Assembly (NCBI RefSeq): GCF_000383575.1
Contig: NZ_KB911579.1
Location: forward strand, 1,935,387 to 1,999,386
Origin: Salinispora oceanensis
Lineage (GTDB): Bacteria; Actinomycetota; Actinomycetes; Mycobacteriales; Micromonosporaceae
Length of the DNA stretch: 64,000 bases
Reading direction: 5' to 3'
Part shown: positions 17,114-46,678 of the stretch, piece after piece
Numbering within the stretch: position 1 is the first letter of the stretch
Layout of the letters: each line of letters starts with the position of its first letter
Translations under genes and position numbers: made by a program
The notes under the pieces: generated by a model
Seen by the model: the letters and a program-made list of their open reading frames with translations, nothing else
Databases searched by the model: none
What the model was told of the DNA's origin: nothing

Positions 17114-17229
17114 CCTTATGACGGATTTTACTCGGGTTGGTTGCCACCTACCGGGTAGCCCGAGGAGCGCCACACCGGACCGCACTGGGCGACTCCTCGT
17201 CCGTAAACGGGGAAGGACACCGGAGCGCG

Positions 17230-18609
17230 ATGAACCATCAGCACCACCAACACGAACCGAGCGGGCCACGTCAACGCCGCCCAAAGCCACGATGGTGGGC
17301 GCTCGGACTGGCCGGGATGACTGGCTTGGCCCTCACCACTGTCGGGGTTGCCGCCGCCCCCGCGGACGCCGCCCGACCTTTCCCGACCAGCGCCGAGGAC
17401 CGCCCCGGCAAGACCGCGGACCGCCCCGGGACGCCGGAGACGCCCACGACCGACGGGCACCGCGGCACATCCGACGAAAAGAGCAAGGGCAAGAAGGAAC
17501 CCAAGGGCATTCCCATCCCCTGCGACACCGACAAGCTGATCGCCGCGATCACCCTCGCCAACGCCCGCGGCGGCGCCACCCTCGACCTCGCCAGCAAGTG
17601 CACCTACCTACTCACCGCCATCATCGACGACGCCGGCCTCCCCGCCATCACCACCCCCATCACCCTCAACGGCGGCAAGCACACCATCATCGAACGCGCC
17701 GCCGCCGTCGAACAGTTCAGAATCCTCACCGTCGACACCGGCGGCGACCTCACCCTCAACCACCTCACCATCACCGGCGGGCAAACCGACAGCGACGGCG
17801 GCGGAATCCTCGTCAACACCGGCGGGGCGCTCACCACCAACCACAGCACCATCACCCGCAACATCTCCGGGGACAGCGGTGGCGGCATCCGCAACAACGG
17901 CGTGGCCACCCTCAACCACTCCACCGTCAGCCGCAACACTGCCGTGTTCGGCGGCGGGATCTTCAACTCCGGCCTGCTCACGTTGATCAAGTCTCAGGTC
18001 GAGTCGAACAACGGAAGTGAGGCGGGCGGCATCTTCAGCCTTGGCAACATGAGCGCCACGCACAGCGTCATCGCTCACAACCAGGCCAGCGACGCCGGCG
18101 GCGGGCTGCTGCTGGGTTCGGGAACGCACACCCTGACGCACACCCGAATCGTGAACAACGCCGCACCCCAGGGCGGCGGTTTCCTGCTCAACTCCCCCGG
18201 CCAGGTCACCCTCGAGAAGGTGCTCCTCGCGGACAACACCGCGACGAGCCAGTCTGGGGGCGGGGCGGTGGTCTCCACTGGCGCATTCCTCGTCGTCCGG
18301 GACAGCACCATCAAGAACAACACCGCCGCTACCGCCGACGGGGGTGGCATCGACAACGCCGGAGAGACCGTCCTCCAGCAGACGGAGGTCATCGGTAACC
18401 AGGCGGGCAACCAGGGCGGCGGCATCTACAACGAAGCCACCGGCACCCTCGACCTCATCGCGACAAAGATCATCAAGAATGTCGCCGTCGTTGACGGCGG
18501 GGGCATCTACAACGACAACGGCACGGTGAACCTGAACACCGCCACCGGCACGATCGTGATCAAGAACCGACCCAACAACTGCGTCAACGTCCCCGGCTGC
18601 GCCGGCTAG
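17230..18609 (+). CDS. Secreted right-handed beta-helix repeat protein, paralogue 1
   Basis: A 459-residue exported protein. The N-terminus is basic (RPKPRWWALG) with a hydrophobic core and an ADA cleavage site near residue 50. A charged, Lys/Gly-rich linker follows to about residue 97. The rest is a beta-helix built from ~21-25-residue coils with recurring GGGI-x-N motifs and Asn/Thr ladders. It ends in an INNxCxxVPGCxG-like motif. Such folds are found in polysaccharide lyases and surface adhesins; no catalytic residues are recognisable. GGAG lies four bases before the ATG. About half its sequence is nearly identical to the paralogue at 20434-21807. Confidence 0.85.
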   Translation: MNHQHHQHEPSGPRQRRPKPRWWALGLAGMTGLALTTVGVAAAPADAARPFPTSAEDRPGKTADRPGTPETPTTDGHRGTSDEKSKGKKEPKGIPIPCDTDKLIAAITLANARGGATLDLASKCTYLLTAIIDDAGLPAITTPITLNGGKHTIIERAAAVEQFRILTVDTGGDLTLNHLTITGGQTDSDGGGILVNTGGALTTNHSTITRNISGDSGGGIRNNGVATLNHSTVSRNTAVFGGGIFNSGLLTLIKSQVESNNGSEAGGIFSLGNMSATHSVIAHNQASDAGGGLLLGSGTHTLTHTRIVNNAAPQGGGFLLNSPGQVTLEKVLLADNTATSQSGGGAVVSTGAFLVVRDSTIKNNTAATADGGGIDNAGETVLQQTEVIGNQAGNQGGGIYNEATGTLDLIATKIIKNVAVVDGGGIYNDNGTVNLNTATGTIVIKNRPNNCVNVPGCAG

Positions 18610-18759: not shown

Positions 18760-19533
18760 CTATCCGGGAAGGTCCTGGGGCAGAGTGTTGTACCGGTCCA
18801 GAGTGGCCTTGCTGGTCGAGTTGTCCTGGAACACCAGCTCCCATGGGCCAGTGTTGATATCCATGGCTTTACCGAAGCCGACCCACTTACCGGTCATACG
18901 TCTGCCGGTCGGTTCGACGAGTAGCTGAATCGCTCCGTGATAGCGGGCGCCTCGGTAGTAGCCCTCCTCGGCCGTCTGCTCGGTCCACGTCCCGGTGATG
19001 ACGCTGCCATCCACGGTGAGATCCAGCGCCAGCGACGACGAGGCGGAGTTCGGGAGGCTACGTACGGTCAGCCGGTCACTGTGCTGCAACAGCACCACGT
19101 AGTGCTGCCCGGCGTAAGACTCACCGCGGCCGCTCGAGTAGAACTGATAGCGACTGAGCCACACGCCCACGTAAGTGCCGTGCGGGGTGCCGGGGCGGGC
19201 CGCTGGCTCCGGCGTAGCCAGATCCGACATCGACGATGTCAGATCGTGGCCCCCCTCGCGATCAGCCTTGACCTGAGCGCCCGGCAACGCGGCGAAACCA
19301 AGCAGCTCGATAGGGAGGCCGGTAACCACCTCCAGCGCACGGAGGTAGACGGGCCTGGGAGCAGCGATCGCGCCGGACTCCCACCGCTGTACCAGCCGCT
19401 TGTTGGCGTCGTTCGGTTCTCCGGCCCGGTGGCCGGCTGCCTGCAGCGCGCGGGCGAAGTCGTCCTGGCTCATCCGCATCCCGGCACGGACAGCTCGAAG
19501 CGCGGTGTTGGGGGTAGTCATGGTCATCACCAT
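18760..19533 (-). CDS. XRE-family regulator with a beta-rich C-terminal sensor-like domain
   Basis: A 257-residue protein. The N-terminal helix-turn-helix (about residues 8-75) reads NTALRAVRAGMRMSQDDFARAL and NKRLVQRWESG. A Pro/Ala linker follows (about 95-115). The C-terminal ~140 residues alternate strands (GTYVGVWLSRYQFYSS, HYVVLLQ, GSVITGTWTEQT, RRMTGKWVGFG) like a small calycin-type barrel that could hold a ligand. Several in-frame starts exist (19533, 19527, 19521) without a clear Shine-Dalgarno; leaderless translation is possible. Divergent from the two small genes at 19667-20131, with 133 bases between, so it probably controls them. Confidence 0.8.
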   Translation of the reverse strand: MVMTMTTPNTALRAVRAGMRMSQDDFARALQAAGHRAGEPNDANKRLVQRWESGAIAAPRPVYLRALEVVTGLPIELLGFAALPGAQVKADREGGHDLTSSMSDLATPEPAARPGTPHGTYVGVWLSRYQFYSSGRGESYAGQHYVVLLQHSDRLTVRSLPNSASSSLALDLTVDGSVITGTWTEQTAEEGYYRGARYHGAIQLLVEPTGRRMTGKWVGFGKAMDINTGPWELVFQDNSTSKATLDRYNTLPQDLPG

Positions 19534-19666
19534 AGCTATCTGTCGCCTGAATGTCGCCGCCAATGTGGGTGGTTTGCCATGTGCTGTGCCGCCGTGCTCG
19601 GCGACACAGCAGCGACATCATGACGGGAGCCAACCGCTGTAGCAGTACCGAGGGAGGGCAATCCTC

Positions 19667-19900
19667 ATGCGAAACATCCGTAATGCCTGGCGGCGACTCA
19701 TCGACCAGTCCGCACCCATACGGACTGGCGCCAAGCACCGCTTCGGCCGTCAGCCCGCGCGTGTGGATACGACCGGACCGACGACTCGGTACGCGGCACG
19801 GGCGGGTGCCTACCACCCACTCCGCAACCAATCAACGGTGATCTTTGATACCCGGCCGTTGATGACCCCGCTGGCCCGGCAGCGGGCCGACTCCCGGTGA
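19667..19900 (+). CDS. Small basic protein, first gene of a two-gene module
   Basis: A 77-residue, Arg-rich protein beginning MRNIRNAWRRL, with no membrane span and no known domain. GGGAGGG lies about ten bases before the ATG. It is divergent from an XRE regulator and is followed after nine bases by a small CxxCG-WPC protein gene. The same layout (XRE regulator, basic first gene starting MRIRWFGWRRR, CxxCG-WPC second gene) recurs at 43504-45239. Function unknown; recognition rests on this repeated architecture. Confidence 0.65.
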   Translation: MRNIRNAWRRLIDQSAPIRTGAKHRFGRQPARVDTTGPTTRYAARAGAYHPLRNQSTVIFDTRPLMTPLARQRADSR

Positions 19901-19909
19901 CGGCCACCG

Positions 19910-20131
19910 ATGCCCGATCGCGCCCGTGGTCAGCTGTCGGCAGCCCAGTTGCGCAACCGGATGCTCCTGTCCGCTCGGCGAATCATCACCGAACACTGGC
20001 CACGCGTGGACCGGTGCTCGGTCTGTGGCTGCAGGTGGCCGTGCCCACCCACCGAAACCGCCTACGACTACCTCGCCTCGATGGGGCAGGGCTGCTGGGC
20101 GCCCCCGAAGGGTGTGCGGGGCTTGCGGTGA
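19910..20131 (+). CDS. Small CxxCGxxWPC protein, second gene of the module
   Basis: A 73-residue protein with the motif C-S-V-C-G-C-R-W-P-C (about residues 36-45), followed by PPTETAYDYLASMG. The N-terminal half is helical and basic (LSAAQLRNRMLLSARRIITEHW). The same cysteine motif occurs in the second gene of the other module (44898-45239). The cysteines could bind a metal or form a redox pair. An in-frame GTG is not available upstream; the ATG at 19910 has only a weak Shine-Dalgarno. Not a WhiB protein: the four-cysteine spacing does not fit. Confidence 0.65.
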   Translation: MPDRARGQLSAAQLRNRMLLSARRIITEHWPRVDRCSVCGCRWPCPPTETAYDYLASMGQGCWAPPKGVRGLR

Positions 20132-20433
20132 CACCAACCCCCGCAGATCCGTCCTGGCGGCTGGACCGGACTGCTCCGCTGTGACCTGATCCGAGCACCA
20201 CCAAGCGTTCGGGTTGGCCCTGTCCGCCCGGATCGGTCGGGAGGTCCGGCCGTTGGCCTGATTCGCGCCGCATCTATGTCCCTTTTAAGCGTGTTTCTCG
20301 TGTTCGTGTCGATGTGGGGCCAGTGTCGGGATTAGCTGAAGGTGGTCGCTATCGCCTGCCCGGTAGCCGGGGAACAGCCACCGCAGGGTGGTGCGTTGCT
20401 CGCCGTTCACGGAGAAAGGAGACCAAGACTGTG
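20132..20433. other. Leader region of beta-helix gene 2
   Basis: No gene seen. It contains the shared upstream box (20269-20291), a GGTAGCCGGGG stretch at 20360-20370 resembling one in the leader of paralogue 1, and AAAGGAG at 20415-20421. No match to a c-di-GMP riboswitch core (no ACGCAAAGCC) was found. Confidence 0.45.
20269..20291 (+). promoter_or_regulatory. Upstream box shared by the two beta-helix genes, copy 2
   Basis: CGCATCTATG followed by TCCCTTTTAAGCG, the counterpart of 17093-17113, here 142 bases before the coding region. Confidence 0.45.
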
Positions 20434-21807
20434 ATGGCCCAACCGCACCACGACCACGAACCAGACACGCCCCGGGCACGCCGAGCCAGAAACCGGTGGT
20501 GGGCCGTCGGGTTGGCCGGCATGACCGGCTTGACCCTCAGCACCGGCGGCGCGGTCGCCACCCCAGCCGCCAGCGCGATCAAACACGACGTCGCTGCCGC
20601 CGGCGACGCCCCCTCCGTTGACGAGCGCCGCGGTACCCGCGACGACGGCAGGGGCATGCACTACGGCAAGGGCACCGGGATGAAGGGCAAGCAGCCCAAG
20701 GGAACCCCAGTGCCCTGCGACGCCGAAGCCCTCATCGCCGCGATCACCCTCGCCAACGCCCGCGGCGGCGCCACCCTCGACCTCGCCAAAGACTGCACCT
20801 ACCTGCTCACCACCAACCTCGACGGCGCTGGCCTGCCCACCATCACCACCCCCATCACCCTCAACGGCGGCAAACACACCACCATCGAACGCGCCGCCAC
20901 CGCCGACCAGTTCCGCATCCTCACCATCAATATCGGCGGCGACCTCACCCTCAACGACCTCAAACTCACCGGCGGACACACCACCGGCGACGGCGGCGCA
21001 ATCCTTGTCAACCCCGGTGGCAGACTCACCACCAACGACAGCGCTATCACCCGAAACATCGCCGACGGTAACGGCGGGGGCATCACCAACAACGGCGTTA
21101 CCCACCTAAACCACTCGTCCGTTGATGACAATCGCTCCGCCGTTTTCGGTGGCGGGGTCCTCAGCTTTGGCGTACTCAAGATCCGCAAGACTCACGTACG
21201 CGCCAACACCGCTTTCATCGGAGCTGGGGTCTTCGGCGCGGTGGAAGTCCAGATCGACAGCAGTACCATCAACGCCAATCACTCCTCATTCGGCAGCGGC
21301 GGCCTTGTCATGTTTATCGGAATCGGCACCGTGACGGACACCGACATCACGAACAACACCGCGATGGAGGTCGGCGGCATCCTCGTTAACCTCGACACAC
21401 AACTCACCCTCAAATCGGTCACCGTTTCCGAAAATGTCGCCACCACCAGCCTCGTGGGCGGCCTCGGAATAAACCCGGGCTCCTCCGTTGTGGTCGAGAA
21501 CAGCAACATCAAAAACAACACGGCCGCCACCGATGCTGGCGGCATCTACAACACCGGCTCCCTGGTGTTACGGCGAACAAAGGTCACCGGAAACCAGGCG
21601 GGCGACGAGGGCGGCGGCATATTCAACACGTTCGGGGGCGCCGTCAGTCTCTTCGACACGAAGGTGGTCAAGAATATCGCCACCACCGACGGCGGGGGGA
21701 TCTTCAACGTAATCAATGGAACGGTCGAGTTGAACACCGCCACCGGCACCATCGTGGTCAAGAACCGGCCGAACAACTGCTTTGGCGTACCTGGTTGCGC
21801 CGGTTAG
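20434..21807 (+). CDS. Secreted right-handed beta-helix repeat protein, paralogue 2
   Basis: A 457-residue exported protein with the same plan as the paralogue at 17230-18609. It has a basic N-terminus (RRARNRWWAVG), a hydrophobic core and an ASA cleavage site near residue 49, then a Gly/Lys linker and a long beta-helix with GGGI-type coils. A conserved PCDAEALIAAITLANARGG stretch opens the helix and it ends NNCFGVPGCAG. The cap regions are almost identical to paralogue 1 while the middle coils differ, which suggests gene duplication with variation in the exposed ladder. AAAGGAG is 12 bases before the ATG and nine before an adjacent GTG at 20431, which may be the true start. Confidence 0.85.
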   Translation: MAQPHHDHEPDTPRARRARNRWWAVGLAGMTGLTLSTGGAVATPAASAIKHDVAAAGDAPSVDERRGTRDDGRGMHYGKGTGMKGKQPKGTPVPCDAEALIAAITLANARGGATLDLAKDCTYLLTTNLDGAGLPTITTPITLNGGKHTTIERAATADQFRILTINIGGDLTLNDLKLTGGHTTGDGGAILVNPGGRLTTNDSAITRNIADGNGGGITNNGVTHLNHSSVDDNRSAVFGGGVLSFGVLKIRKTHVRANTAFIGAGVFGAVEVQIDSSTINANHSSFGSGGLVMFIGIGTVTDTDITNNTAMEVGGILVNLDTQLTLKSVTVSENVATTSLVGGLGINPGSSVVVENSNIKNNTAATDAGGIYNTGSLVLRRTKVTGNQAGDEGGGIFNTFGGAVSLFDTKVVKNIATTDGGGIFNVINGTVELNTATGTIVVKNRPNNCFGVPGCAG

Positions 21808-21996: not shown

Positions 21997-22070
21997 TGGC
22001 CAGGGGCGGGGTCGAACCGCCGACCTTCCGATTTTCAGTCGGACGCTCGTACCAACTGAGCTACCTGGCC
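21997..22070 (-). tRNA. tRNA-Phe (GAA)
   Basis: A 74-base cloverleaf: acceptor GGCCAGG/CCTGGCC, D stem GCTC/GAGC, anticodon loop CTGAAAA with anticodon GAA, T loop TTCGACC. The 3' CCA is not encoded. Last of three tRNA genes read leftward. Confidence 0.97.
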
Positions 22071-22133
22071 GTGCTTCGGGTCATGGTACCTGGCCGTCGA
22101 GATCACCGACGGGCCGGGTCACCTGCCCGATAT

Positions 22134-22167
22134 GTCGAAGGCCGCGCGTACTGGCGCGGCCTTCGAC
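22134..22167 (-). terminator. Strong hairpin between tRNA-Asp and tRNA-Phe
   Basis: Perfect 13-base stem GTCGAAGGCCGCG / CGCGGCCTTCGAC with an eight-base loop, starting six bases past tRNA-Asp. It may terminate the Glu-Asp transcript or act as a processing signal. Confidence 0.6.
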
Positions 22168-22172
22168 GTTTG

Positions 22173-22246
22173 CGGTCCTGACGGGACTTGAACCCGCGAC
22201 CTCCGCCTTGACAGGGCGGCGAGCACTCCAACTGCTCCACAGGACC
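22173..22246 (-). tRNA. tRNA-Asp (GTC)
   Basis: A 74-base cloverleaf: acceptor GGTCCTG/CAGGACC, anticodon stem CCGCC/GGCGG with loop CTGTCAA and anticodon GTC, T loop TTCAAGT. CCA is not encoded. Confidence 0.97.
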
Positions 22247-22272
22247 TAGCTCATCCGACCGAGGTCGGACCG

Positions 22273-22345
22273 TGCCCCCAACGGGATTCGAACCCGTGCT
22301 ACCGCCTTGAAAGGGCGGCGTCCTGGGCCGCTAGACGATGAGGGC
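22273..22345 (-). tRNA. tRNA-Glu (TTC)
   Basis: A 73-base cloverleaf: acceptor GCCCTCA/TGGGGGC, anticodon stem CCGCC/GGCGG with loop CTTTCAA and anticodon TTC, T loop TTCGAAT. First in the Glu-Asp-Phe order. Confidence 0.97.
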
Positions 22346-43325: not shown

Positions 43326-43517
43326 TCAGTCGCGGCCGGGCAACTGGGCGACGAACGCCCGCCACGCCCCCGGCCCGAACACCAGCGCCGGCCCGGTCGG
43401 GTCCTTGGAATCCCGCACCCCGACGATGCCCGGAAGGTTGCCGGCGACCTCGACGCAGTCGCCGCCGCTCGTGCCGCTGCGAGTGGACTTCTTCCAGCGA
43501 GCGTTACTGAGGTTCAT
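43326..43517 (-). CDS. DUF397-domain protein
   Basis: A 63-residue protein with the DUF397 pattern: WKKSTRSGTSGGDCVEVA, VGVRDSKDPTGPALVF and W-x-A-F at the end. Such proteins are often encoded beside XRE/DUF5753 regulators in actinomycetes, where they act as paired partners or antitoxin-like factors. The start overlaps the regulator's stop by 14 bases. Confidence 0.88.
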   Translation of the reverse strand: MNLSNARWKKSTRSGTSGGDCVEVAGNLPGIVGVRDSKDPTGPALVFGPGAWRAFVAQLPGRD

Positions 43518-44301
43518 GCAGGCACTCCGCTTCTTTGATCAGCGCGACCGATGAGGCTTGCGGGAGGGCGACGCCCCGCACAGTCTCCCACCTGGTCTGA
43601 AGGGTCGCCACCCCTTCCTCGGCGGTGACGACCTCGCCGGCAAGCTGGTCCTCCAGGTGCACGACCCAACCTCCATCCGGGAGCATTGCCAGGGCGAGCG
43701 GACCGGAGAGCCCGGCGTGCAGGCCCGCGGCCGTAGGAATCACGTGAATGTGGAGGTACGGCAGCTCCGCCATCCGGAGTAGATGCGCGAGTTGCTCGGC
43801 CATGATGGCGTCCCCGAGCCGCAGCGCTCCCTCGTTGATGACGGCCACGACCTGCGGCGGTCGGTCGCGGGTCAGGATCTTCTGCCGCTCCAGCCGAGCC
43901 GAGACCTGCTGCTCCACCTCGAACTCGGGCCGGGTGTCGTCAAACCGCAGGACCGTGCGGGCGTAGTTCTCGGTCTGGAGCAGGCCCGGAATCAGATTCG
44001 GGTGAAAGTAGCGGAGTTGCCGCGCGACCGCCTCGGCCTCCAGCCAGGGCTTGAACCAGGCGGGCTGCTCGTCCCGGTGCGCCAGCCGCAGCAGCGACTC
44101 GAAGAGGCCGCCGGTCTCCAGGATCTCGTCCGCCCGACACGCGTACGGCAGGTCAGTCATTCGGGTGCCGGTCTCCACCGCCGACACGGTCGACGCCGAG
44201 TAGTTCGTTCGACGCCCGAACTCCTCCTGACTCATGCCGGCGAGCGCCCGCTGTCGACGGAGCTGCACCCGGATGAGATCAGCGGCACGTTCAGATTCCA
44301 T
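43504..44301 (-). CDS. XRE-family regulator with DUF5753 domain
   Basis: A 265-residue protein. The N-terminal helix-turn-helix (about residues 8-60) contains RRQRALAGMSQEEFGRR and YSASTVSAVETGTR. The C-terminal part is a DUF5753-type ligand domain (IPGLLQTENYARTVLR, VVAVINEGALR, LPYLHIHVIP). GGAGG lies four bases before the ATG. Divergent from the small two-gene module at 44566-45239, echoing the other XRE/module arrangement at 18760-20131. Confidence 0.9.
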   Translation of the reverse strand: MESERAADLIRVQLRRQRALAGMSQEEFGRRTNYSASTVSAVETGTRMTDLPYACRADEILETGGLFESLLRLAHRDEQPAWFKPWLEAEAVARQLRYFHPNLIPGLLQTENYARTVLRFDDTRPEFEVEQQVSARLERQKILTRDRPPQVVAVINEGALRLGDAIMAEQLAHLLRMAELPYLHIHVIPTAAGLHAGLSGPLALAMLPDGGWVVHLEDQLAGEVVTAEEGVATLQTRWETVRGVALPQASSVALIKEAECLHEPQ

Positions 44302-44470
44302 CGGCCCTCCAGAGATTCTTCTAGATCGCCACACCACGCCAGCCCAACAAGCAAGATCGCCAAGCGCCGCCAGGAAAAGAGCACGATCGCCAGACCCTCG
44401 CCAGGATCAGCATGAAGCCCTTCCGCCGCCAGGTGGTTAACACAGAGAGTGAATTGAGACGGCGTGAGCC

Positions 44471-44561
44471 GGTGGAGGACTTTCCCGCCGGAGGCGCCTG
44501 TCGGACCGCCCCCACCCCCGCGCTGTCAGTGGGGGCGGTCCTCCACCAACATCAAGGAGGT
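44471..44561 (+). promoter_or_regulatory. Structured 5' leader with competing stems ending at the ribosome binding site
   Basis: GGTGGAGGAC (44471-44480) pairs perfectly with GTCCTCCACC (44538-44547). Inside, ACCGCCCCCAC (44505-44515) pairs perfectly with GTGGGGGCGGT (44529-44539). The CCTCC at 44540-44544 is also complementary to the Shine-Dalgarno AAGGAGGT at 44554-44561. The outer stem and Shine-Dalgarno sequestration therefore exclude each other, so this leader could regulate translation. Confidence 0.6.
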
Positions 44562-44565
44562 CCAG

Positions 44566-44901
44566 ATGCGAATTCGCTGGTTTGGTTGGCGTCGGAGGAA
44601 CACCGCGCCGCCCCGCCCGCACGAGACGAACGCGCCGTACCGCGCAGGCGGGGCGCACCGAGCGGGCGGAGCACACCGGGCAGGCAGATCACCCCGCAGC
44701 AACGCGCCGTACCGGGCAAGCGGACCACACCGGGGAAGTAGGCCGTACCGGGAAAACAGGCCGTACCGGGGAAGCGGGCCTGACCGCCCAGCGAGCCTGC
44801 CGGCATGGATGACCCAACCCACCCTCGCCGAACCCCAACCCGGACGCGTCGGCCGACTCACCCCCGCCCAACAATGGCGAGCCAACGGAGGCCACTGGTG
44901 A
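44566..44901 (+). CDS. Small Arg-rich repetitive protein, first gene of the second module
   Basis: A 111-residue, strongly basic protein beginning MRIRWFGWRRR, then GGAHRAGGAHRAG and repeated P-Y-R and P-H-R motifs, and a normal-looking C-terminal end (LTPAQQWRANGGHW). AAGGAGGT lies four bases before the ATG. The gene overlaps the next by four bases (GTGA). It has the same position and similar N-terminus as the 77-residue protein at 19667. No known domain; the repeats probably came from short tandem DNA repeats. Confidence 0.65.
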   Translation: MRIRWFGWRRRNTAPPRPHETNAPYRAGGAHRAGGAHRAGRSPRSNAPYRASGPHRGSRPYRENRPYRGSGPDRPASLPAWMTQPTLAEPQPGRVGRLTPAQQWRANGGHW

Positions 44902-45239
44902 ACCCCCGCCACAACCTCCCCACACCACGACTCGGCCCCCACCCCCAACACCCACGCCACCGCACCAGAAACCAACCACCCCACACACCCCTACGACCCA
45001 CCTGGACCTGCCGCGCCTGCGGCCACCCCTGGCCCTGCGCCGAAGCCCGCCTCCTCCTCACCGCCCAATACGACACCCGGCAATCGAGCCTATCGATCTA
45101 CCTCGCCGGACTCTGCTACGAAGCCATGCACGACCTCTACCACCTCAACCCCCACGACGCACCACACCCCCGCGAACTATTCGAACGCTTCGTCGCCTGG
45201 GGGCCGTTCCGGCGGTCGGCGCGGAAGCTCCCCGATTGA
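44898..45239 (+). CDS. Small CxxCGxxWPC protein, second gene of the second module
   Basis: A 113-residue protein. After a Pro/His/Arg-rich start it carries TCRACGHPWPCAEAR (about residues 36-50), then ARLLLTAQYD and a helical tail ending FRRSARKLPD. The cysteine motif C-x2-C-G-x2-W-P-C is shared with 19910-20131. GTG start overlaps the first gene's stop. Possible metal site. Function unknown. Confidence 0.65.
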   Translation: MNPRHNLPTPRLGPHPQHPRHRTRNQPPHTPLRPTWTCRACGHPWPCAEARLLLTAQYDTRQSSLSIYLAGLCYEAMHDLYHLNPHDAPHPRELFERFVAWGPFRRSARKLPD

Positions 45240-45280
45240 GGTTTCGATGCCGAGGCGAGGCGGGGACCGTGGTCGGCACC

Positions 45281-45767
45281 GCCAGCAGCAGCGATCAACC
45301 GGCCCGGACCAACTGGCGGTACTCCGCCGAGCCCAGAAAGCGCGGCACGATCTCCGCGTTAGCCCGCCCGAACTCCAGGGTGAGCACGTCAGCCCGGTCA
45401 ACGAATCGCATCGCCGCCCCCTCCCCACACACCACATCCGCATCGGTGGCGCTGGTCGACGCGTAGAAAATTGAAAATTCGCCGACCGTGCCGGGGAAGC
45501 TCCCCGCCGGAGCCAGGCCCCGCCAGAACAGGCGCAGCTCATCGACTCTGAGACCGGTCTCCTCATAGAGCTCTCGGTGGGCAGCCACCAACGGCTCCTC
45601 GCCCGGATCCAGGTGGCCACCAGGTAGCGACCATCGATGCGGATCCACTTCGGTGTTGCCGTCTCGAAGCTGCAACAACAACCGACCCCCAGGATCGACC
45701 AAAATCACACCCGCGATCCGTACATCCACTCGCGTCACCATGCGCGCAGCCTAATCCAGCTGGGCTA
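45281..45767. repeat. 487-bp direct repeat, copy 1 (contains NUDIX gene)
   Basis: Nearly identical to 46192-46678 at a constant offset of 911 bases. It includes the whole NUDIX gene plus 14 bases after its stop and 26 before its start. Only scattered substitutions separate the copies, so the duplication is recent. Confidence 0.92.
45295..45741 (-). CDS. NUDIX hydrolase, copy 1
   Basis: A 148-residue Nudix protein. The Nudix box is GGHLDPGEEPLVAAHRELYEETGL (about residues 41-64), preceded by the RWSLPGG strand. It should hydrolyse nucleoside-diphosphate-linked substrates; the specific one is unknown. Differs from the copy at 46206-46652 at only about seven residues, mainly AGSF against VGGV after the box, plus Gly/Arg, Asn/Asp and Pro/Arg changes. 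Confidence 0.9.
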   Translation of the reverse strand: MVTRVDVRIAGVILVDPGGRLLLQLRDGNTEVDPHRWSLPGGHLDPGEEPLVAAHRELYEETGLRVDELRLFWRGLAPAGSFPGTVGEFSIFYASTSATDADVVCGEGAAMRFVDRADVLTLEFGRANAEIVPRFLGSAEYRQLVRAG

Positions 45768-46164: not shown

Positions 46165-46191
46165 CGGCAGTCGCCAGCGCACGCTGCCTCC

Positions 46192-46678
46192 GCCAGCAGC
46201 AGCGATCAACCGGCCCGGACCAACTGGCGGTACTCCGCCGAGCCCAGGAAACGCCGCACGATCTCCGCGTCAGCCCGCCCGAACTCCAGGGTGAGCACGT
46301 CAGCCCGGTCAACGAATCGCATCGCCGCCCCCTCCCCACACACCACATCCGCATCGGTGGCGCTGGTCGACGCGTAGAAAATTGAAAACTCGCCGACCGT
46401 GCCGGGGACGCCCCCCACCGGAGCCAGGCCCCGCCAGAACAGGCGCAGCTCATCGACTCTGAGACCGGTCTCCTCATAGAGCTCTCGGTGGGCAGCCACC
46501 AACGGCTCCTCGCCCGGATCCAGGTGGCCACCAGGTAGCGACCATCGATGCGGATCCACTTCGGTGTTGCCGTCTCGAAGCTGCAACAACAACCGACCCC
46601 GGGGATCAACCAAGATCACACCGGCGATCCGTACGTCCACTCGCGTCACCATGCGCGCAGCCTAATCCAGCTGGGCTA
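46192..46678. repeat. 487-bp direct repeat, copy 2
   Basis: Second copy of 45281-45767. The boundaries are gccagcagca on the left and ctgggcta on the right; no insertion-sequence ends or target duplications were seen. Confidence 0.92.
46206..46652 (-). CDS. NUDIX hydrolase, copy 2
   Basis: A 148-residue Nudix protein with an intact box (GGHLDPGEEPLVAAHRELYEETGL), nearly identical to 45295-45741. Both copies are full length with no frameshift. Which is ancestral cannot be told. Confidence 0.9.
   Translation of the reverse strand: MVTRVDVRIAGVILVDPRGRLLLQLRDGNTEVDPHRWSLPGGHLDPGEEPLVAAHRELYEETGLRVDELRLFWRGLAPVGGVPGTVGEFSIFYASTSATDADVVCGEGAAMRFVDRADVLTLEFGRADAEIVRRFLGSAEYRQLVRAG

Follow-up and report, generated by a model that had tools for sequence, protein, structure and literature searches.

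WPC operons divergent from XRE regulators recur in Micromonosporaceae, with near-identical operons beside different regulators

Results

Two divergent loci in a 64-kb window of the Salinispora oceanensis genome

We analysed a 64,000-nucleotide stretch of the Salinispora oceanensis genome (hereafter, the window) in which an XRE regulator had been predicted, at two loci, to diverge from a short basic gene followed by a gene for a small CxxCGxxWPC protein. Coordinates and motif controls confirmed this layout at both loci, which carry the following features:

Locus 1 (18760–20131)
18760–19533, minus strand: XRE-type regulator gene with an NsdA-like HTH, starting at ATG or at TTG 19563
19667–19900, plus strand: basic protein (77 aa), with relatives in L013, L364, L368 and L392
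19910–20131, plus strand: motif protein (73 aa), WPC-B family
Locus 2 (43326–45239)
43326–43517, minus strand: DUF397 (BldB-type) gene, directly after the XRE gene
43504–44301, minus strand: XRE regulator gene, HTH_31 plus DUF5753
44324–44392, minus strand: three TGGCGATC direct repeats (44324–44331, 44355–44362 and 44385–44392) found by repeat search, candidate operator
44503–44541, plus strand: perfect 13-bp inverted repeat 5' of the basic gene, possible leader hairpin
44566–44901, plus strand: basic protein of the WRANGG type (111 aa), with internal repeats encoded by 18-bp tandem repeats
44898–45239, plus strand: motif protein (113 aa from GTG), WPC-A family by domain alignment

The locus 2 regulator matches DUF5753 (PF19054, E 1.6e-48) and HTH_31 (PF13560, E 8.9e-11), and is directly followed by a DUF397 gene (PF04149, E 5.6e-23) that the original prediction did not include; a PADLOC search returned weak HTH matches to this regulator and nothing else. 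The locus 1 regulator matches the NsdA family (E 6e-10) and, when queried with one extra upstream residue, HTH_31 (about E 0.03; 0.034), both below the cut-off; a Pfam scan detected no DUF5753 in it, and we found no DUF397 gene beside it. The regulators thus belong to different XRE subtypes, as proposed. At locus 2 the best start of the motif ORF is the GTG at 44898, and the resulting GTGA (44898–44901) overlaps the stop codon of the basic gene, a coupling of the two small genes that had not been noted before. The inverted repeat ahead of the basic gene folds with a z-score of -2.23, and 4 of 200 shuffles folded equally well. The locus 1 basic and motif proteins match phrog_25407 (E 8.5e-23) and phrog_27556 (E 4e-38), respectively.

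Both neighbourhoods contain repeated sequence. Locus 1 is flanked by genes for two related repeat-rich proteins (17137–18609 and 20314–21807, plus strand; DNA ~70% identical), and genes resembling these adjoin WPC-B on the viral contig L414 and on L383. A cluster of three tRNA genes (21997–22345, minus strand), a possible integration site, lies 1.9 kb from locus 1; an Rfam scan matched tRNAs alone. Beside locus 2 is a 489-bp direct duplication (45279–45767 and 46190–46678, minus strand; 97% identical) with a NUDIX-like ORF.

The small frames of both loci look to be under purifying selection, as comparative coding statistics gave pS above pN in most comparisons. For the locus 2 motif protein, pS was 0.60–0.82 against a pN of 0.10–0.19 in four more distant comparisons, and 0.05–0.17 against 0.02–0.07 in three close ones; pS/pN for its basic ORF was 0.13/0.05, 0.41/0.21 and 0.34/0.15. 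L153 and L366 are not part of these counts, because their slices did not divide into complete codons; the basic frame of L153 also fails to align. At locus 1, the motif ORF gave 0.47/0.16 (L013), 0.47/0.19 (L392), 0.50/0.31 (L368) and 0.11/0.06 (L364), and the basic ORF gave 0.42/0.20 and 0.43/0.20. Support is weaker for the basic frames, because the locus 1 basic ORF gave 0.11/0.11 against its closest relative, L364.

The motif marks two protein families that share a zinc-knuckle-like stretch

A chance origin of the motif was ruled out: CxxCGxxWPC has two matches in the window and none in 100 shuffles of it, and across the 5.45-Mb genome we found 11 matches, against one for the reversed pattern. 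In a sample of the genus, each of the 31 genomes has one or more matches. Of 40 strict matches from a further five genomes, two were false (L059 and L081, out of frame in a 979–980-aa gene). In an order sample outside the genus, the raw motif gave 13 matches in 12 of 55 genomes and was no commoner than the reversed control; hence, the raw motif is unfit for distribution counts.

The locus 2 family, WPC-A, is a domain of ~75 residues in which H7, C16, C19, G20, W23, P24, C25 and R75 are invariant among 49 aligned sequences, so that the putative metal ligands (H, C, C, C) are kept in 49/49. In WPC-B, the locus 1 family, H29, C36, C39 and C45 are kept in all eight aligned sequences. The small genes had been described as otherwise dissimilar, and for the motif proteins this held: outside the knuckle, a single family was rejected (hhalign aligned only 27 columns, with a probability of 88.9), and the alignments indicate two families that have only the zinc-knuckle-like stretch (H, C-x2-C, W, C) in common, with different flanks. 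It did not hold for the basic proteins, which a third protein encoded in this genome, L019, connects (E values of 1.5e-5 with one and 5e-17 with the other, from a small custom database whose size was fixed at 100,000); comparison of their profiles gave a probability of 87 with L019 and a non-significant 3.9 without it.

Judged by the conserved putative ligands, WPC proteins probably bind zinc. The knuckle has a C-x2-C-G turn in common with rubredoxin-type zinc/iron knuckles, although profile matches to these were weak and not significant (best E 0.26), and WPC proteins differ in having three cysteines plus a histidine instead of four cysteines, and a helical C-terminal part. An AlphaFold2 model of WPC-A (pLDDT 88.7, pTM 0.75) has short strands followed by three helices. 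Foldseek found no match to this model in PDB or BFVD at E 0.001, and a second fold comparison over nine chains, which rules out no fold, gave a best Z of 2.8. The WPC-B model was poor (pLDDT 62.0, pTM 0.30). Pfam had no match for the WPC or basic proteins of either locus, and NCBIfam gave only a chance-level match for the window WPC-A protein. A WPC-A subtype, GSCGxxWPC, occurs once in each of four other genomes (L054, L067, L074 and L082); in three of the four a phosphopantetheinyl transferase (PPTase) gene is divergent and an XRE gene absent.

WPC-A operons are linked to divergent XRE and DUF397 genes

Searching the genome with a WPC-A profile gave 14 places with E values of 1e-11 or lower; two of these contain an internal stop. 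By curated models, nine of the 14 have a divergent HTH_31 gene within 2 kb and ten a divergent DUF397 gene within 3 kb; 11 have one or the other, against a mean of 0.19 and a maximum of 4 in 20,000 random placements. Conversely, a divergent WPC-A gene is found at 11 of the 31 DUF397 genes of the genome. For 19 DUF397 genes with no WPC gene, we inspected 17 regions and classified some of them; the partners seen were varied, including GPP34 (E 1.3e-43) and, with a sub-threshold match (E 1.8e-4), a DivIVA-like protein, and on this sample we rejected an AbaA-like rule for these loci. DivIVA-like small proteins (E ~1e-4, below cut-off) are also encoded in small operons beside XRE/WPC genes, at L396 5333–5653 (plus strand) and L064 4074–4475 (minus strand).

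Scoring the neighbours of 211 WPC-A operons in the Micromonosporaceae with our own profiles gave a divergent XRE gene within 2 kb in 169, of which 145 are accompanied by DUF397, so that the notion of a selected, recurring unit is well supported. The remaining operons have a divergent DUF397 gene only (3), a co-directional XRE gene (15) or none of these (24); three of the last group have fewer than 200 bases of upstream sequence, and four more are of the GSCGxxWPC subtype. By set, a divergent XRE gene was found for the one operon in the window, 12 of 13 in its own genome (the thirteenth being co-directional), 27 of 38 in five genus genomes, 57 of 78 in six genomes of other genera (76 regions covered for 89 WPC-A matches tallied) and 72 of 81 in named genomes, a set made up of the best 80 among the matches listed. 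These sets overlap: the window operon is also counted in its own genome, and L221 and L085 are apparently one place. By Pfam, the nearest divergent gene carried HTH_31 in 26 and DUF5753 in 25 of 41 cases, drawn from 49 true matches in six genomes.

As a description of this unit, the three-gene module originally proposed does occur and is too narrow. A WRANGG-type basic gene lies upstream in 45 of the 211 WPC-A operons, 41 of these being among the 169 that have an XRE gene in divergent orientation, and other first genes occur; hence, the basic gene is optional and the three-gene layout is one variant. Some alternative first genes before WPC-A encode cysteine pairs of their own, such as the CRCGAELPC and CxxCRAWW types (L056, L058, L325 and others). 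WPC-B loci are arranged differently again: among 30 loci from 56 places, an XRE gene is co-directional and upstream in 17 and divergent in three, one of which is locus 1 of the window, and none was seen within ~1.5 kb in ten. L368 has the same layout as locus 1. In L372, basic, WPC-A and WPC-B genes are consecutive, after a TPR-type gene (an HTH would lie outside the stretch examined), and this row ties the families together.

These counts bear on the possibility of toxin–antitoxin loci, in which the XRE protein (with DUF397) would be an antitoxin-like repressor and the basic peptide, the WPC protein or DUF397 the toxin. XRE–DUF397 has been predicted to be such a pair, expanded in Salinispora tropica, in the available text of PMC2701414, and the small genes are multicopy, patchy and in some cases on proviruses. 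However, the basic gene is absent from most WPC-A operons, and the accessible part of PMC10364602 reports that 0 of 14 S. coelicolor pairs acted as type II systems, the pairs being pleiotropic regulators instead. We therefore regard a toxin–antitoxin function as unlikely.

Distribution in the family and in phages

WPC-A was detected in 23 of 41 genomes of the family, representing 22 of 40 genera, with up to 21 copies. In a class sample, with 22 candidates scored per genome, it was found in 3 of 246 genomes, all from its own genus; DUF397 was found in 85 of the 246. Deeper scoring of 39 DUF397-rich genomes outside the Micromonosporaceae detected WPC-A in none. WPC-B had a match in 20 of 81 genus genomes.

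Viral contigs (predicted proviruses) contributed seven WPC-B and four WPC-A loci. We called genes on six of the viral loci and inspected them by eye: basic genes precede WPC-B in L414, L416 and L417, integrase-like genes are present in L413 and L416, and both L413 and L417 have DUF397-like genes. Lysis- or tail-like genes lie near WPC genes on gene-called viral loci, for WPC-B in L413, L414, L416 and L417. In L419, the WPC-A gene overlaps the preceding gene by four bases; the basic–WPC pair is present in L419 and not in L420. The cassette might belong mainly to phages and integrative elements, serving them in lysogeny or as accessory genes, with chromosomal copies as remnants. The viral loci and their phage-like neighbours, the PHROG matches, the overlapping pair in L419 and the tRNA genes near locus 1 all point this way. 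Against it, the four WPC-A loci in the viral collection compare with 23 of 41 family genomes, neither WPC-A nor WPC-B had a match in named phage and plasmid records, and orthologous regulator–effector loci are present in four Salinispora species. We consider this explanation quite improbable.

Candidate operators upstream of XRE genes

At locus 2, TGGCGATC lies at -30, -61 and -91 from the XRE start; any 8-mer occurred three times in 45 of 3000 window shuffles. The orthologues L147, L149 and L153 carry five, six and seven copies, respectively, those of L153 forming an array, whereas four of the nine rows in the cluster to which the locus 2 regulator belongs carry a single copy (L313) or no copy (L199, L335 and L338). 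In another regulator cluster, 16 of 19 members contain two GTGCAG copies spaced 10 bp apart, and a GTGACAGT box, which we read as a putative XRE promoter, lies ahead of the GTGCAG repeats in 19 of 19. Across 67 weighted clusters, 6-mers repeated at spacings of 10 and 11 bp were found in 9.3 and 9.7, against 2.2 and 2.6 in single-nucleotide shuffles; smaller peaks lie at 21, 36 and 39 bp and, for the distal part, at 12 and 18 bp. At locus 1, the repeat search detected intergenic repeats of the inverted type only and no direct repeats. The direct repeats are candidate XRE operators.

Putative effector operons evolve in concert beside distinct regulators

The sequence from 44525 to 45234 (710 bases) shares 97.7% identity with L014, another locus in this genome, whereas the regulators of the two loci are 46.9% identical. 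This bears out the earlier suggestion of swapped regulators within one genome. The effector pairs are 97.2, 98.1, 96.6 and 95.1% identical within this genome, S. vitiensis, S. pacifica and S. fenicalii, respectively, and the effectors are at most 96.0, 96.0, 95.3 and 93.6% identical to same-locus orthologues in the other three species. By contrast, regulators in the four species are 87–99.6% identical between orthologues and 44–47% between loci, and those of locus a and locus b each form one clade (100/100). The effector tree rejects a single clade of locus-a effectors (p-AU 3e-10); only two of its nine inner branches carry a star, and it does not place the S. fenicalii copies as exact sisters. 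We conclude that, within a species, effector operons evolve in concert and the regulators remain distinct. The simplest explanation is gene conversion, with repeated duplication as an alternative; we found nothing relevant in a search for literature on gene conversion in Salinispora. Since near-identical effectors sit beside distinct regulators, the outputs look exchangeable under different inputs.

This pattern also bears on the idea that the small proteins form a metal- or redox-sensing partner, in which the WPC protein would bind zinc, or sense redox through its cysteines, and modulate the adjacent XRE regulator. The invariant H, C, C and C of WPC-A make metal binding plausible, and the genes are linked to an XRE gene. 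The sensing part found no support. Near-identical effectors beside regulators of 44–47% identity are easier to reconcile with an output common to these regulators than with a partner specific to each, and sensing leaves the conserved helical part after the knuckle unexplained. The whiJ9–iosA case likewise suggests small proteins as regulated outputs rather than sensors, on the available text of PMC10294661. A sensing role for the WPC protein thus seems improbable.

Discussion

Loci that pair XRE and DUF397 genes are heavily multiplied in filamentous actinomycetes, and Scr1/Scr2 is reportedly an example of such a pair. To our knowledge, the outputs are known for few of them. The module had been thought undescribed. 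For its WPC part we found no description in the open-licence literature (the published "WPC domain" papers that we found are apicomplexan and not relevant), but the XRE–DUF397 half is already well described (PMC2701414, PMC10364602 and PMC4255298, each as far as its available text goes). Those pairs involve the same regulator families; the accessible part of PMC10364602 names no divergent small zinc-type operon.

We propose, with a probability of roughly one half, that the module is a Micromonosporaceae counterpart of the Streptomyces whiJ/bldB/abaA–iosA loci, a switch plus an output. In that system, according to the available text of PMC10294661, the XRE protein WhiJ9 binds three direct repeats (consensus CGXXCTCAAC) between iosA and whiJ9, which we read from the layout given there as divergent, at a site downstream of its own promoter, and is needed for iosA activation in a bldB mutant. 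BldB is a DUF397 protein that did not bind DNA, and IosA is a 15-kDa protein with a pI of 10.3 and a fold with no known match, whose overexpression blocks sporulation. By analogy, the XRE protein, usually with DUF5753 and a DUF397 partner, would bind direct repeats in the shared promoter region, with DUF5753 as its presumed input domain, and would control both its own gene and the divergent operon. That operon would encode a WPC protein, small and probably zinc-binding, accompanied at some loci by a basic peptide. The small proteins would be regulated effectors with a role in development or secondary metabolism, as may be expected from whiJ9–bldB9–iosA and the abaA loci. The direction of control, the effector role and the target are inferred, as are zinc binding and operator function. 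Different regulators would supply different inputs, and the effector operons of one genome probably share one target, because they have been kept nearly identical.

Anatomy, linkage, selection, repeats and concerted evolution were observed directly here. In common with the Streptomyces loci, as described in the available texts of PMC10294661 and PMC4255298, the WPC loci have an XRE gene followed by a DUF397 gene, are multicopy, and have a small-protein gene across the intergenic region; as in whiJ loci, direct repeats lie near the XRE start, and the XRE protein of locus 2 is of the DUF5753 type. Several observations argue against the switch-plus-output model: 15 of the 211 WPC-A operons have a co-directional XRE gene and 24 have no XRE or DUF397 gene in reach; locus 1 departs from the whiJ/bldB type in lacking DUF5753, an adjacent DUF397 gene and direct repeats; and TGGCGATC is present at most once in 4 of 9 rows of the locus 2 cluster. 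In addition, Pfam detected no AbaA-like domain in the WPC and basic proteins. Unlike AbaA, WPC-A has no HATPase match. Since the WPC and basic proteins have no Pfam match, we have not filed the module as an abaA locus. In modules of polylysogen phages, an XRE factor is reportedly also coupled to a small protein, on prophages (PMC10432266).

The switch-plus-output model could be extended to a network with many inputs and one output. In each genome, about a dozen XRE(–DUF397) switches, every one having an operator and an input domain of its own, would drive WPC zinc-knuckle effector operons. Some of these operons would be homogenised by gene conversion, so that different inputs act on one target, and temperate phage copies could tap the same target. 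We offer this extension tentatively and think it somewhat unlikely to hold in full.

The WPC families, which have no Pfam or NCBIfam match, are ready for naming and annotation. Salinispora and Micromonospora are antibiotic producers, and WPC operons provide a large, defined set of candidate outputs of their XRE–DUF397 loci. The divergence of the regulators, set against the homogenised effectors, leads to a testable prediction, namely that the effectors share a target.
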